Assembly: GCF_029379315.1 (NCBI RefSeq)
Contig: NZ_JAQYWQ010000008.1
Coordinates: forward strand, 1 to 64,000
DNA: 64,000 nucleotides
Reading direction: 5' to 3'
Origin: Nostoc sp. S13
Lineage (GTDB): Bacteria > Cyanobacteriota > Cyanobacteriia > Cyanobacteriales > Nostocaceae
Shown: piece by piece, positions 5,496 through 11,446 of the stretch
How the letters are laid out: each line of letters starts with the position of its first letter
How positions within the stretch are numbered: the stretch's first letter is position 1
Notes under the pieces: model-generated
What the model saw: only the letters and a program-made list of their open reading frames with translations
The model's database searches: none
Told to the model about the DNA's origin: nothing
Program-made: the position numbers and the translations under genes

Positions 5496-5642
5496 GTAGT
5501 GATTATTAAGCTTATGCTGTCTTGAGCGCGTGGAATATTAAGTGGTTGAGCAGTCCTGAGTCCTAAGTCCTGAGTTCTGAGGTTCTGAATTTAAATTTGA
5601 ACTCCTCAGTAACGCCAGTTGCTTGGCTGTCGGCACCGATGC

Positions 5643-5772
5643 CAGTCGCTGATGGGGGAAACCCCCCTGTTCCCGCGCTGGCTACGCCAGTCTCTTATGG
5701 GGGAAACCCCCAAGACCGCGCTGGCTACGCCAGTCTCTTATGGGGGAAACCCCCAAGACCGCGCTGGCTCCC
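5643..5772. repeat. Three tandem 43-45 bp repeats between aar and ado
   Basis: Three head-to-tail units start with CAGTC at about 5643, 5688 and 5731. Each contains the small palindrome TGGGGGAAACCCCC and ends in CGCGCTGGCTACGC; the last unit runs out into GGCTCCCC. Units two and three are nearly identical, the first differs by two inserted bases and several substitutions. No gene is supported here. The repeat lies in the spacer between the two alkane genes, and each GGGGG/CCCCC stem could form a hairpin in the transcript. Confidence 0.8.
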
Positions 5773-6686: not shown

Positions 6687-7514
6687 ATGTCCAAACCGAA
6701 CCCTAATCTGAAATCTGGTGATTTTTTGAGCCTGGTAGTCTTACTGCTAGGGGCATTGCTCGTTCTACTACCTCTGTTTGTGGTCTTTCTCACCTCCTTT
6801 GCATCAACCGCCGCCAGCCCAGAAAATTTGTCCAAAAATCACTGGTCTTTAGCTAATTACCGCGTTGCATGGCAACAGGGAAAATTTTTGCTGGCGTTTG
6901 CTAATTCTACCTTGGTAGCGATCGCTGTGACGGCGTTTCAGATTGTCACTTCCGCTTTAGCGGGTTACGCCCTCGCACGGCTGAAGTTTCGGGGACGCCA
7001 AGCACTGCTATTGGTTGTTTTAGCAACTTTGGTGATTCCCTTTCAGTTATTGGTGATTCCGATCTTTTTGGTTTTGAAGTGGGGACACTTGATAAATACC
7101 TATGGGGCGCTGATTTTACCCACTGCTGTCAACGGATTTGGGATTTTCTTATTACGTCAATATTTCCAGACAATTCCCGTGGAATTAGAGGAAGCCGCAG
7201 CCATAGACGGAGCGAACAGACTGCAAATTTTGTGGCGAGTGATGTTACCTTTAGCCCGTCCGGCCTTGCTGACGCTGTTTTTGTTCACTTTCATCGGCGA
7301 ATGGAATGATTTGTTTAAGCCTCTGGTGTTTACGACACGACCAGAATTAAGGACGGTGCAGCTGGCGTTGGCAGAGTTTCAAGAACAATTTACGAATAAT
7401 TGGCCCTTAATGATGGCAGCAGTGACAATCGCGACAGTTCCAGTGATGGTACTATTTCTCATCGGTCAGCGCCAGTTTATTCAGGGTATTGCCACCACGG
7501 GGATTAAGAATTAG
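6687..7514 (+). CDS. Carbohydrate ABC transporter permease (MalG-type)
   Basis: Inner-membrane subunit of a binding-protein-dependent sugar importer. The 275-residue protein has about six hydrophobic segments and the EAA loop EEAAAIDGANRLQILWRVMLPLARP (about residues 168-192), which contacts the ATPase. Length and motif fit the MalG/UgpE-like group. No binding protein, second permease or ATPase lies beside it, so the rest of the transporter must be encoded elsewhere, as is common in cyanobacteria. The substrate cannot be assigned. A small inverted-repeat element starts 52 bp after its stop codon. Confidence 0.9.
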   Translation: MSKPNPNLKSGDFLSLVVLLLGALLVLLPLFVVFLTSFASTAASPENLSKNHWSLANYRVAWQQGKFLLAFANSTLVAIAVTAFQIVTSALAGYALARLKFRGRQALLLVVLATLVIPFQLLVIPIFLVLKWGHLINTYGALILPTAVNGFGIFLLRQYFQTIPVELEEAAAIDGANRLQILWRVMLPLARPALLTLFLFTFIGEWNDLFKPLVFTTRPELRTVQLALAEFQEQFTNNWPLMMAAVTIATVPVMVLFLIGQRQFIQGIATTGIKN

Positions 7515-7565
7515 CCGGGAGGCTGGCGGTGAGTCAAAGCCCCCCTGAGATTTCAATCTCAGCAT

Positions 7566-7656
7566 TAGACATCTGGTGAAATTAAATATGCCTTATCTAG
7601 AACCCTTGTAGAGACGCGAAATTTCGCGTCTCTACATTCTTTTTCGGAGATGTCTA
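7566..7656. mobile_element. MITE-like element, family A copy 1 (TAGACATCT ends)
   Basis: A 91-bp element bounded by perfect inverted TAGACATCT/AGATGTCTA. Its middle is a 28-bp perfect palindrome built from GTAGAGACGCGAAA and its reverse complement. Two more copies lie at 42785-42876 and 58129-58219, in the opposite orientation. The outer TA could be a duplicated TA target, as made by IS630/Tc1-type transposases, but I cannot prove insertion. It has no coding capacity. Confidence 0.8.
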
Positions 7657-7735
7657 TTGAATTTTGTGAAACTATGCGAAATTCTTCCTAGCCAAGCTGA
7701 ATCCATAATTGTACACATTGGAAATGGAAACAGTT

Positions 7736-8023
7736 ATGAACTCTGAAACATTACAACAGTTACAAGACGAGATTCAACATAAACTGCTTGAAAGCGTTAA
7801 GAATGCTGACTTATACGCAGTACTTGAGAAATACGGAGTATTAGAAGATCGAGCTCTAATAGTTCAGTGGCAGTGCAATCTTGACCTAAATAAAATCAAA
7901 TCTGGTGATGCAGTTAATGAACAGCAAACCCCAAAAGACACAGAAGAGAGAATTGTGCTAATGCAAAGATCATGGTGTGTCCCTTGCCCTTCAAATCACA
8001 ACCCTCTTGGCTGTAACTGCTAA
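7736..8023 (+). CDS. Small protein with Cys-rich C-terminal peptide, copy 1
   Basis: A 95-residue protein of unknown family. The N-terminal part is hydrophilic and predicted helical (LQQLQDEIQHKLLESVKNAD and onward) with no signal peptide. The last 15 residues, CVPCPSNHNPLGCNC, are identical to the end of the gene at 8455-8706, although the rest is unrelated. I chose the ATG at 7736 because GGAAA precedes it; an in-frame ATG at 7724 and a TTG at 7709 exist. The layout (helical leader plus short Cys-rich tail) resembles precursors of modified peptides, but no modifying enzyme lies nearby and this is inference. It could also be a metal-binding or disulphide-bonded tail. Confidence 0.6.
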   Translation: MNSETLQQLQDEIQHKLLESVKNADLYAVLEKYGVLEDRALIVQWQCNLDLNKIKSGDAVNEQQTPKDTEERIVLMQRSWCVPCPSNHNPLGCNC

Positions 8024-8045
8024 ATAATTTAGTCTTCGGACTGTA
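7971..8045 (+). repeat. 75-bp duplicated cassette, copy 1 (Cys-rich tail plus 3' flank)
   Basis: This segment matches 8654-8728 with only about four or five mismatches. It covers the 15 tail codons, the TAA stop and 22 bases beyond it, ending in a tiny hairpin AGTC-TTCG-GACT. The only difference inside the tail codons is a synonymous TGC/TGT. The homology begins at CAT just before the first Cys codon and stops after CTGTA. Confidence 0.85.
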
Positions 8046-8070
8046 TTTATAAACAAGAGGGCGAAAGGGT

Positions 8071-8200
8071 AACAGGACTTACGCAAAGATCAGGTTTCTC
8101 CCTGATTGCAAGCGAAGCAATCCCAGTCCCAACGAGATTGCTTCGCTACATTGCATTCCGCTTATAATCAATGACCAATCATCGCTGCGTAAGTCCTGTT
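8071..8200. mobile_element. MITE-like element, family B copy 1 (GGACTTACGCA ends)
   Basis: A 130-bp non-coding element with perfect 15-bp terminal inverted repeats, AACAGGACTTACGCA at 8071-8085 and its reverse complement at 8186-8200. Related ends occur at 38947-39174 and 59043-59130. It lies between the two Cys-tail ORFs. No transposase is encoded. Confidence 0.8.
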
Positions 8201-8454
8201 AGAGGCTGTTTATAAAAAAATGTAAAGGGTATGAATGCGGTAATTGGCTCATAAGGAAATATGCTTCATGTGATTTTAAAACACCTCAGAACACCTCAAC
8301 CAGACCTTCATAATAGTTTACAAATAGGTTCTTAAATTTTCATAAAGAACGAAACGTAGATTACTGATTCCAATATATATTACTGTGGTTTACTAAAGCT
8401 TTGGTACTAGGTAGCAATTGTTGTTTTATTACTGAAAGAGCTGCAATATTAAGT

Positions 8455-8706
8455 ATGAATAATCTTTCGGATTGCGTTAAATATTTAGGAATTGCAATAG
8501 GTGGTGCAGTAGTTTTGTCTAGAAACTCTGCTATTGCTCAAATTGGCCAGAACGGGAATCTACCTAATAATTATAGCGTTACAGCACAAGACAATATCGA
8601 AATAATTCCAGCTAGCACCCAATATGAAACTAATCTGTCTCAAAGTTTAAATTCATTGTGTGTCCCTTGTCCTTCAAATCACAACCCTCTTGGCTGTAAC
8701 TGCTAA
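8455..8706 (+). CDS. Exported TPS-stub protein with Cys-rich C-terminal peptide, copy 2
   Basis: An 83-residue protein. Residues 1-29 look like a signal peptide (hydrophobic YLGIAIGGAVVL, then SAIAQ). The following IGQNGNLPNNYSVT and TQYETNLSQSLNSL resemble, at reduced length, the start of the two-partner-secretion domain of cyanobacterial exoproteins such as the one at 9005, where ALAQ and GTNLFHSFEQF occupy the same places. The TPS similarity then breaks off and the protein ends in CVPCPSNHNPLGCNC, identical to the tail of the gene at 7736-8023. I prefer the ATG at 8455 because it gives a sensible signal peptide. It is either a decayed exoprotein gene that acquired the tail or a real secreted peptide. 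Confidence 0.6.
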   Translation: MNNLSDCVKYLGIAIGGAVVLSRNSAIAQIGQNGNLPNNYSVTAQDNIEIIPASTQYETNLSQSLNSLCVPCPSNHNPLGCNC

Positions 8707-8728
8707 AGAATTTAGTCTTGGGACTGTA
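8654..8728 (+). repeat. 75-bp duplicated cassette, copy 2
   Basis: Second copy of the segment at 7971-8045 (offset 683 bp). Tail codons, stop codon and about 22 bp of 3' flank are kept. The small AGTC/GACT stem is preserved while one loop base differs (TTGG against TTCG). Confidence 0.85.
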
Positions 8729-9004
8729 AGAAACAATTTATAAAGTAAATCTAAAGAAACCAACTTGGGTGCGCTGGTTCACCAGTTTCTACAACTCTTT
8801 TGACTACAGCAACGCACTGGCTCCCCAAAAGTAATTTTATTTTTACTTTATTAATGACCTCTAAAGAGTTTATTCTAGTGAGTATAAAAATGCTGAACTT
8901 TGCATTTACTAGTTAGGCTACAGAGATAATCTCAAGTATCACTATACCTAACTAGCAAGGAGCAGTATTTAAATATACTTTTATTTTTTGGGTGCAAGTT
9001 AGTC
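8707..9004. promoter_or_regulatory. Upstream region of the TPS exoprotein gene
   Basis: About 300 bp without a gene after the cassette. It contains a perfect nine-base inverted repeat, CTAGTTAGG at 8909-8917 and CCTAACTAG at 8947-8955, around a 29-bp spacer, followed by a GGAG-like sequence. The inverted repeat could be an operator or a transcript hairpin; the exact promoter cannot be read. Confidence 0.3.
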
Positions 9005-11446
9005 ATGTCTCAATACCGAAGCAGTTGGTGCTGGGAGTTAGGGATTGTGAGTACCTTAGCAATTGCTGGAGTGCTGACTTTCTTTGAGAGTTTTGCCTTA
9101 GCCCAAATACAAAAGGATGGCACACTTGGATCTGAAAGTTCAATCATTACACCAAAGCTAATCGATGGTCAGCCTACAGACCAGATTGATGGTGGGGCAG
9201 TTCGTGGTACAAATTTGTTCCACAGCTTTGAACAGTTTTCTGTCTCTGCGGGAAGGACAGCCTACTTTAACAATGCAATAGATATTCAAAACATCATCAG
9301 TCGAGTGACAGGCAATTCTATTTCCAATATAAATGGCATTCTGAAAGCTAACGGCGCAGCCAACCTGTTTCTGATTAATCCTAACGGCATTGTTTTTGGG
9401 TCAAATGCTTCTTTAAATATCGGCGGTTCATTTGTGGGCAGTACGGCGAGTAGCTTGAACTTTGCTGATGGTACAAAATTTAGTGCTACATCTGCTCAAA
9501 GTACACCCCTGCTGACAGTAAGTGTTCCCATTGGTTTACAATTCGGAACAACTGCGGCTCCCATCCGCAATCAATCCCAAGCACAACCAGATGGCGCAGT
9601 TAATATCTTTGGACAAGGCGTTGGTCTACAGGTGCAGCAAGGCAAAACCTTGGCACTCATCGGCGGTGATATCACGCTAGATGGAGGAAATATCACAGCA
9701 AAGGACGGAAGCGTTGAGTTAGGAAGCGTCGCTGGTAATAGTCTGGTCAGTTTGAGTCCAACGAACCTAGGTTGGGCATTTGGATATGAAGGTGTTCCAA
9801 ATTTCCAGAACATCGAATTAATCAAATCGCAGGAAACCTCATCTACCATCGATACTCATGGAGACACTGGGGGCAATATCCAGATGCAAGGCAGGAATAT
9901 ACGGATAGCTGGGAGTTTCCTAATTCTAGTTTATCCCTTGCAAGAGCAGTCAGGGGGGAATGTGACACTGAACGCCTCAGAGTCTGTAGTAGTTGAGCAA
10001 GATGCACAACTGTTTACTCAGAATTTCTCCAGCGGAAACTCTGGGAACATAAATGTCACTACTAAAAAGTTGGTCGTTAGAGGTGGAGGACAATTGCAGG
10101 GGCAATTGACCATAAAGGCCTCTGATTCCGTGGAACTAATCGGCGGCACCTCCGTTCGTCAGCAAGATGGTAGTGATTTAATATCCAGTGGATTATTTAG
10201 TGCAACTTATGGCGAGAAAAACGCTGGCAACATCACAATTAACACTGGAAAGTTGCGTATCGAAGGAGGGGCAAAAATATCAACAACCTCTGAGAGCATA
10301 TATGGTTATTTTTCTAACGAACTTATACCAGCTACAGGAAATGCCGGAAATTTAACTGTGAACGCCTCTGATTCCGTAGAACTAATTGGAACCTCACCAA
10401 ATGGTTCTAACGTCAGTGGCTTGTTTTCTGGAACTCAAGGGCCTGGAAATGGCGGTAACTTAAACCTAACGACAGGGGAATTGATTATCAAGAATGGGGC
10501 TGCAATATCTGTGAGCAGCCAAGCTCGAAAAAATGTCATCTCTAACGGAGATCCAAATAATTTAGGGAAAGCAGGCGATTTAAATATAACCACTCGCTCC
10601 CTACTTCTGGATAAAGGAACACTCACATCTAATAGTGAGTCAGGTGGAGGGGGGGATATTATGCTACAGGTGCAGGACTTATTACTGATGACCCACGAAA
10701 GTCAGATAACCACTAACGCAGGTACGACAGGGCTTAGTGGAGATGGCGGTAATATTACCATCAAAGCACCTAATGGCTTCCTCGTCGCCGCTCCCTTAGA
10801 AAATAGCGATATCACCGCCAACGCCTTCTCTGGCTCTGGTGGTAAAATCACAATCACTACTAAGAACATCTTTGGGTTTGTGCCCCGCACTCGTACACAG
10901 GTAGAGAGACTTGATGCAAAGCAAATCAACCCAAATAACCTGCCAACAAATGACATTAGCGCATTTTCTCAACAAAACCCTTCATTAAGTGGCACTGTAC
11001 AAATCAACTCACCAGATGTTGACCCCAGCAAAGGATTAGTGCAATTACCCGTAAATATTGTTGATGCCTCACAGCAAATTGTTGCTGGTTGTAATTCTGG
11101 TGGAAAAATAGCCAGAAGTTCATTTATTGCAACTGGGCGTGGAGGACTAGCGCCTGATCCCACAGAGCCATTGATCGCTGATAATGCGGTGCTGGCAGAT
11201 TGGATTACACTGGAGCCAGATAGTAAGAATCGTGCTGGCGGTATTCAGAAAAGAGTGGTTGTTCCCAAGCAGCGAAACAGAGAAGAAAAATTACGGAAAG
11301 TTAATTCTGTCAATGAACCTACTCAAATTGTGGAAGCCCAAGGATGGGTAATGGATGCCAATGGTAACGTGGTTCTGGTTGCTCAAGTACCTACTGCGTC
11401 GCCCCATAACTCCTCACTCGTTGCTACATCTTGCGATGCTAATTAG
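9005..11446 (+). CDS. Filamentous-hemagglutinin-type exoprotein (two-partner secretion)
   Basis: Predicted large surface or secreted protein of 813 residues exported by a TpsB/FhaC-type outer-membrane pore. Residues 1-35 form a signal peptide (hydrophobic IVSTLAIAGVLTFF, cut near ALAQ). Residues about 36-160 are the TPS domain, with GTNLFHSFEQFSV, ANLFLINPNGIVFG and GGSFVGSTASS. The middle is a beta-helix-like series of GNI/GGNI/VELIG strands. The end (VDASQQIVAGCNSGG and EAQGWVMDANGNVVLVAQ) is typical of cyanobacterial members of this family. No TpsB partner lies in the window. A function in adhesion or competition is family-level inference. Confidence 0.9.
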   Translation: MSQYRSSWCWELGIVSTLAIAGVLTFFESFALAQIQKDGTLGSESSIITPKLIDGQPTDQIDGGAVRGTNLFHSFEQFSVSAGRTAYFNNAIDIQNIISRVTGNSISNINGILKANGAANLFLINPNGIVFGSNASLNIGGSFVGSTASSLNFADGTKFSATSAQSTPLLTVSVPIGLQFGTTAAPIRNQSQAQPDGAVNIFGQGVGLQVQQGKTLALIGGDITLDGGNITAKDGSVELGSVAGNSLVSLSPTNLGWAFGYEGVPNFQNIELIKSQETSSTIDTHGDTGGNIQMQGRNIRIAGSFLILVYPLQEQSGGNVTLNASESVVVEQDAQLFTQNFSSGNSGNINVTTKKLVVRGGGQLQGQLTIKASDSVELIGGTSVRQQDGSDLISSGLFSATYGEKNAGNITINTGKLRIEGGAKISTTSESIYGYFSNELIPATGNAGNLTVNASDSVELIGTSPNGSNVSGLFSGTQGPGNGGNLNLTTGELIIKNGAAISVSSQARKNVISNGDPNNLGKAGDLNITTRSLLLDKGTLTSNSESGGGGDIMLQVQDLLLMTHESQITTNAGTTGLSGDGGNITIKAPNGFLVAAPLENSDITANAFSGSGGKITITTKNIFGFVPRTRTQVERLDAKQINPNNLPTNDISAFSQQNPSLSGTVQINSPDVDPSKGLVQLPVNIVDASQQIVAGCNSGGKIARSSFIATGRGGLAPDPTEPLIADNAVLADWITLEPDSKNRAGGIQKRVVVPKQRNREEKLRKVNSVNEPTQIVEAQGWVMDANGNVVLVAQVPTASPHNSSLVATSCDAN

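Follow-up and report, generated by a model that had tools for sequence, protein, structure and literature searches.

Small TPS-linked proteins with an exchangeable cysteine-rich tail in heterocyst-forming cyanobacteria

Two-partner-secretion (TPS) exoproteins are common in the filamentous cyanobacteria considered here, and to our knowledge little is known about their role in these organisms. Modular leader–core proteins and variable TPS accessories are already known in principle. The NHLP and Nif11 precursors of cyanobacteria combine a conserved leader with a variable core, and several precursors are found per locus. In the bcpAIOB contact-dependent inhibition loci of Burkholderia, the small ORF bcpO lies beside the TPS exoprotein gene; according to the available part of the account, it has a signal sequence in some alleles, has none and is allele-variable in others, and is required for exoprotein function (PMC3415462). 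Recombination exchanges 3'-end modules, the tpsC cassettes, at a meningococcal TPS locus (PMC3848433, in excerpt). HMW1, HxuA, and CdrA carry a C-terminal disulphide anchor, a short Cys loop linked to the TPS system (PMC5422565 and PMC7616799, both in excerpt). In a phage-resistant substrain of Nostoc 7120 a TPS-type haemagglutinin was mutated (PMC10811720, in excerpt), which is likened to the present exoproteins by type only.

In this study, two small genes of Nostoc sp. S13, A and B, were assigned to a family of small TPS-linked proteins with Cys tails that occurs in heterocyst-forming cyanobacteria and has apparently not been described before. The likeness to bcpO is by description only: bcpO lies 5' of tpsB in an operon with an immunity gene, and no exchange of a Cys core is described for it in the available part of the account (PMC3415462). 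In the tpsC system the exoprotein's own C-terminus is exchanged, as far as the excerpt goes, whereas here small neighbours swap short tails (PMC3848433). In contrast to the anchors of HMW1, HxuA, and CdrA as excerpted, the present proteins are separate, small, variable, and mostly without a signal peptide. The family differs from the NHLP and Nif11 precursors in having no detectable homology to them, no GG site (by eye), a TPS partner, and a second N-terminal kind with a signal peptide.

Searches of sequence libraries left the family unmatched, with weak and scattered matches only. None of 19 A-type proteins matched the NHLP or Nif11 leaders of NCBIfam (TIGR03793 and TIGR03798) at E ≤ 1. In profile–profile comparison by hhalign, these leaders gave E-values of 0.32 and 0.19 and were rejected as relatives, while the control comparison of NHLP with Nif11 gave 7.9e-7. 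The best PHROGs match (E 0.0061, one A2-type protein) was to a family of unknown function, and the best PADLOC match had an E-value of 0.039. A fold search with the model of an A2-type protein against PDB and viral models gave no significant match. The best PDB sequence match, a ribosomal protein (E 0.0055), was taken as chance. No description of the family was found in the PMC literature searched, which is mostly without subscription papers. The family and its two-sided exchange were thus not found in the libraries or literature searched.

The window is the whole stretch of 64,000 nucleotides that was analysed. Its relevant features are as follows:

6687–7514, + strand: ABC-transporter permease gene (BPD_transp_1), upstream flank of gene A
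7736–8023, + strand: gene A, small protein of 95 aa with a hydrophilic helical leader and a Cys tail (family profile E 2.2e-33; orthologues)
7970–8045, + strand: shared 76-bp segment, copy 1
7976–8023, + strand: gene A core (tail), CVPCPSNHNPLGCNC, and stop codon
8455–8706, + strand: gene B, secreted twin of 83 aa with a signal peptide (by eye), a TPS-like stub, and the gene A core
8653–8728, + strand: shared 76-bp segment, copy 2
8659–8706, + strand: gene B core (tail) and stop codon
9005–11446, + strand: TPS exoprotein gene, filamentous-haemagglutinin type, 813 aa (Pfam TPS E 3.6e-65; TIGR01901)

The initial annotation had proposed that the two genes end in the same Cys-rich peptide below unrelated N-terminal parts, and this was confirmed. 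A repeat search of the window returned the 76-nt pair at 7970–8045 and 8653–8728, with 72 of 76 positions identical (95%). A blastn comparison of 600 bp with 600 bp gave a sole block from −53 to +22 around the stop codon (72/76, E 2e-31), and this identity ruled out a chance origin of the repeat. The 15-residue tails were identical. Their 15 codons differed once, by the synonymous TGC/TGT change that had been pointed out before. No third copy of the tail was found in the window's genome, which is 93% complete. Gene A starts at ATG 7736, with alternative starts possible at 7727 or TTG 7709, and its stop ends at 8023; gene B starts at ATG 8455 and its stop ends at 8706. By eye, the gene A form has neither a signal peptide nor a double-glycine site. 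The Pfam TPS domain (PF05860) matched neither gene A nor gene B, while it matched the neighbour at 9005–11446. The flanks are the ABC permease and the TPS exoprotein genes, in agreement with the earlier statement that no modification enzyme adjoins.

A terminator-like hairpin had also been suggested to travel with the tail. In the 3' flank of copy 1, a 4-bp stem is capped by a UUCG loop; in copy 2 the loop reads UUGG. The folding of the flanks was not better than that of shuffled sequences (z −0.44 and 0.28) and a terminator scan found no site there, which excluded such a hairpin. No known RNA element was found in 7400–9100. Three further elements were observed in the region. A strong terminator-like hairpin of 13 pairs with a T-rich tail lies between the permease gene and gene A (7607–7636). 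A MITE-like element of 130 bp with 15-bp perfect terminal inverted repeats (AACAGGACTTACGCA / TGCGTAAGTCCTGTT) lies between genes A and B (8071–8200); it has one full copy in the genome, and the four other matches are of 27–39 bp. Three tandem repeats of about 43 bp containing GGGGGAAACCCCC palindromes lie at 5628–5758.

The 15-residue tail gave a match at E ≤ 10 in 40 of 53 genus genomes, the weakest of which are probably chance. In 28 of 29 inspected loci the tail ended a frame of 92–123 aa with the gene A leader, and the 29th was cut by a contig end. The tail thus reaches in frame beyond one strain, contrary to the finding that the initial annotation had named as a refutation. Among 35 distinct gene A orthologues, no change was seen in any of the four cysteines, in the first two prolines, or in the glycine that precedes the third cysteine. 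The pN/pS ratio in these was 0.28 for the tail and 0.47 for the leader, indicating purifying selection. Start-less copies of the tail were limited to two, in two relatives, one behind gene A (L104) and one before it (L103); they are probably remnants of lost B genes. Gene A lies between the ABC permease and TPS exoprotein genes in many strains of the genus, as in the window. Many strains of the genus also have another A-type gene, A2, in front of a second TPS gene.

The A-type profile found members in 49 of the 53 genus genomes and in 111 of 217 genomes of the family Nostocaceae (the 53 included), from 24 of 56 genera. Among 388 genomes of the class, 9 matched, 7 of them in the family; the other two matches (L251 and L252) were weak, were without the family's tail, and were rejected as members. 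Tail matches outside the genus in the order search were read in frame at 28 loci; none of these had the leader or ended in the tail, and they were rejected too. A tblastn search found no gene A copies on plasmids or phages, and a degenerate tail pattern was not found in viral contigs. For comparison of loci, 100 stretches were taken from hand-chosen matches, including 40 of the 62 family genomes outside the genus with a match. The member set comprised 139 proteins: 143 short ORFs less three non-members (L103|-1, L120|1918, and L129) and one same-genome repeat. For composition they were counted as 108 A and 31 B, with signal peptides judged by eye and the signal-bearing twins L173|7895 and L190|8274 counted as B.

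Members combine a conserved helical leader with an exchangeable, Cys-rich core that is 4–23 residues long (median 15), and 113 distinct cores were collected. At least two cysteines occurred within the last 22 residues of 138 of the 139 members; the frequency per residue was 0.179 there versus 0.009 elsewhere. Outside the gene A orthologue group, 81 of 96 distinct cores had an even number of cysteines, a count made less independent by relatedness among the cores; by clusters, the number was even in 24 of 29. Four-Cys tails were the commonest, and 2-Cys and 6-Cys cores were also common. Many two-Cys cores had a turn-like NG or similar between the cysteines. The even numbers and the turn-like residues suggest that the cores may be disulphide-bonded hairpins. 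A stretch resembling IPGxxLVLxxC recurred before the core. AlphaFold2 predicted two leader helices (pLDDT about 75–84 there) in models of low confidence as a whole (means of 61 and 67). B-type genes with a very short CxxxC core and no TPS gene in the fetched stretch were observed at L115, L117, L118, L119, and L126.

A-type genes nearly always lie just upstream of a gene for a TPS exoprotein of about 800 aa. Over all fetched loci, a downstream TPS gene on the same strand within 1.5 kb was found for 105 of 110 A-type genes and 14 of 29 B-type genes, where the profile rule placed L173|7895 and L190|8274 in type A. Window gene A showed the family profile (E 2.2e-33), the Cys core, and a TPS gene within this distance. 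At 40 loci outside the genus, TPS genes of one cluster were present in 38; the runner-up neighbour cluster was present in 12 and several clusters in 10, which is partly explained by ten loci that share their chromosomal position with Nostoc. The ABC permease lies upstream of gene A at many genus loci and at 10 of the 40 loci outside the genus, and is probably a position marker outside the unit. As for genes of maturation enzymes, immunity proteins, or TpsB, no non-TPS cluster exceeded 12 of the 40 loci, where neighbours were partly identified. Genes of one cluster for a TPR protein were observed near the unit in 10 of these loci (L169, L170, L171, L173, L175, L192, L193, L194, L197, and L198), and a CHAT domain was confirmed in the three TPR proteins tested (L170, L173, and L197). 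That a CHAT protease might cut the leader is speculation. The 29 inspected exoproteins keep similar C-termini, and tail cores were absent from their own ends. TPS protein similarity was 0.78 for same-core pairs versus 0.67 for others, a difference confounded with relatedness, and co-variation of core and TPS protein was rejected on this ground.

The initial annotation had described a fixed core below a changing leader. The exchange of the leader was upheld, but the core is also exchanged and varies greatly at the A2 locus. There the leader is conserved and the core differs between strains, with unrelated cores at one locus: CTCWS...CPCH, CCEDW..C..C, DWCPP.G.CSSP, KPCP...P.GCW, CIITNQGMICG, and others. 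The leader DNA of L203 and L213, for example, was 82% identical, and their cores were unrelated. Some strains have a second gene, of type B, in which a signal peptide precedes the same core or a different one. At one score cut-off, 10 of the 29 core clusters occurred under both N-terminal kinds, a soft count since cluster 2 is partly joined by the pre-core stretch. Of 23 genomes with both kinds, 10 shared a core cluster between them versus 3.4 expected, and none of 20,000 permutations was as high; tandem duplication contributes to this sharing. No third N-terminal context was seen for the CTCWS core, the eight places in seven genomes at E < 1e-5 being A or B genes. A few weaker matches were also members (G472, G466, and G413), and most others up to E 1 were chance-like. 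The modular idea of the initial annotation was right.

The limits of the shared DNA were compared for A–B pairs. In four cross-strain pairs it started at or somewhat before the core and ended at the stop codon: L092/L102 (−69 to −4, 92%), L217/L127 (−95 to +1, 92%), L105/L091 (−42 to 0, 91%), and L107/L099 (−53 to 0, 91%). Three further comparisons of the L105/L091 and L107/L099 cores had the same limits at 80–87%. Other pairs shared more, such as A2 and B1 of L094 (−117 to +79, 71%) and the pair of L096 (−85 to +1, 72%). The pairs of L094 and L095 and the tandem twins of L173, L176, L179, and L190 had longer shared stretches including the 3' flank. Descent by duplication explains part of the A–B sharing, and the right edge of the shared blocks may look sharper because non-coding DNA diverges faster. 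A mobile cassette, as proposed before, is not required; the DNA agrees with partial duplication, gene conversion, and the acquisition of new 5' ends.

In the window, the copying appears recent. Both tails read NHN, while at the middle position G occurs in 29 and N in 5 of the other 34 distinct gene A tails. The His codon is CAC in both genes, two bases from the GGC of near relatives. This strain-specific His in both cores points to a recent copying of one core onto the other, and the simplest reading of the sequence is that gene conversion copied or homogenised them. The lichen strain 210A has an orthologue of gene B with its own core version (L090, on the same contig as L235). Window B matched it at 83% over 424 bp, upstream included, and was constrained relative to it (pS 0.274, pN 0.120).

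B genes were found in at least 24 of the 83 genomes of the set. In several cases the B signal peptide matches the 5' end of a TPS gene. For this comparison a rough pattern was used to select the TPS genes. The 5' ends of 7 of 31 B genes tested aligned with that of the same-locus TPS gene at 68–82% DNA identity (one each in L092, L095, L096, L108, and L176, and two in L094). The alignment began at the start codon for L092, L095, and one L094 gene. The other 24, window B included, showed no DNA match to a TPS 5' end at the start codon. At the protein level, the B leader (query L037/L102) matched TPS N-termini over about the first 65 residues at E ≤ 1 in all 53 genus genomes, and window B matched this leader at 51% (E 1e-18). 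The Nostoc twins had TPS2-like N-termini. By eye, the L173 twin had another signal-type N-terminus and the L190 twin resembled another TPS type, TPS1-like. In L173, L176, L179, and L190 the 3' half of the twin and part of the downstream flank were a tandem copy of A (85–90%). Secreted twins arose repeatedly.

Amino-acid-changing versus synonymous changes numbered 18.5 versus 1.5 between the twins of L190 and 34.5 versus 4.5 between those of L179, small numbers that hint at diversification. The L173 and L176 twins had no such signal (ratios of 0.62 and 0.41). Seven B–B pairs had pN/pS ratios of 0.44 to 1.13; at 0.83 and 1.13 the constraint was weak, and decay fits such pairs as well as diversification, so that some may be relaxed. 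At L162 (8218–15037), an array of eight family genes, seven of them with signal peptides (by eye), was observed upstream of one TPS gene; its Cys cores were related yet different.

The reading preferred here, with a probability of about 0.5, is that the small protein is a partner of the TPS surface exoprotein with an exchangeable, probably disulphide-bonded head that serves strain-specific recognition, competition, or phage escape. The functional end would be the core, a disulphide-clamped hairpin that works with the neighbouring surface exoprotein outside the cytoplasm. The core's variability would spread through recombination in the conserved flanks and would give each strain its own head, which might be used in recognition, in competition, or in escape from phages. 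The main rival is a cytosolic metal-binding role of A. As the A form lacks both a signal peptide and a double-glycine site by eye, metal binding in the cytosol could be all that its Cys tail does. A would then be a cytosolic metal- or redox-sensing TPS accessory with a tail that binds zinc or iron, and B and the secreted copies would be decaying by-products of local duplication. The resemblance of the start-less tails L103 and L104 to decayed copies, the weak constraint on several B pairs, and the prevalence of four-Cys tails agree with this role. However, twins with differently derived N-termini keep the Cys core in frame, 2-Cys and 6-Cys cores are common, and window B is constrained relative to its 210A orthologue; strain-to-strain replacement of a whole metal site would also be odd. 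This role was considered rather unlikely.

A lower probability was given to precursors of ribosomal natural products or bacteriocins. In this view the leader would be cleaved off, enzymes with genes at other places would modify the Cys core, and the product would be exported. At most 12 of 40 loci share a non-TPS neighbour cluster among the partly identified neighbours, the NHLP and Nif11 leaders were unmatched by both NCBIfam and profile–profile comparison, and a twin with a signal peptide does not suit a cytosolic maturase. These points speak against precursors; the conserved leader with its variable core, the eight-member array of L162, and the recurrent pre-core stretch speak for them. The explanation is unlikely. 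It is very improbable that the B-type proteins are free-standing cysteine hooks, that is, mini-TpsA proteins with a Cys hairpin that plugs or regulates the TpsB pore, as in HMW1, HxuA, and CdrA. They do combine a signal peptide, a TPS-start stub, and a C-terminal Cys loop, and hooks are described for TPS exoproteins in the excerpted accounts (PMC5422565, PMC7616799). But Pfam does not recognise a TPS domain in the window stub, which is of only about 65 aa, the common A form lacks a signal peptide, and such variability is not expected of hooks.

The preferred reading, an exoprotein partner with an exchangeable head, can be extended tentatively, at less than even odds. The genes may form a previously unrecognised polymorphic peptide system of heterocyst-forming cyanobacteria, in which a TPS exoprotein is combined with a disulphide head that is recombined across strains and across signal-less and secreted versions, giving a peptide for recognition, competition, or phage escape. 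Half of the family genomes searched carry this small partner gene with its exchangeable head, which would offer a direct handle on the role of TPS surface proteins. Within one family both leader and core have changed and secreted twins have been gained repeatedly, an unusual natural experiment in how modular peptides evolve.
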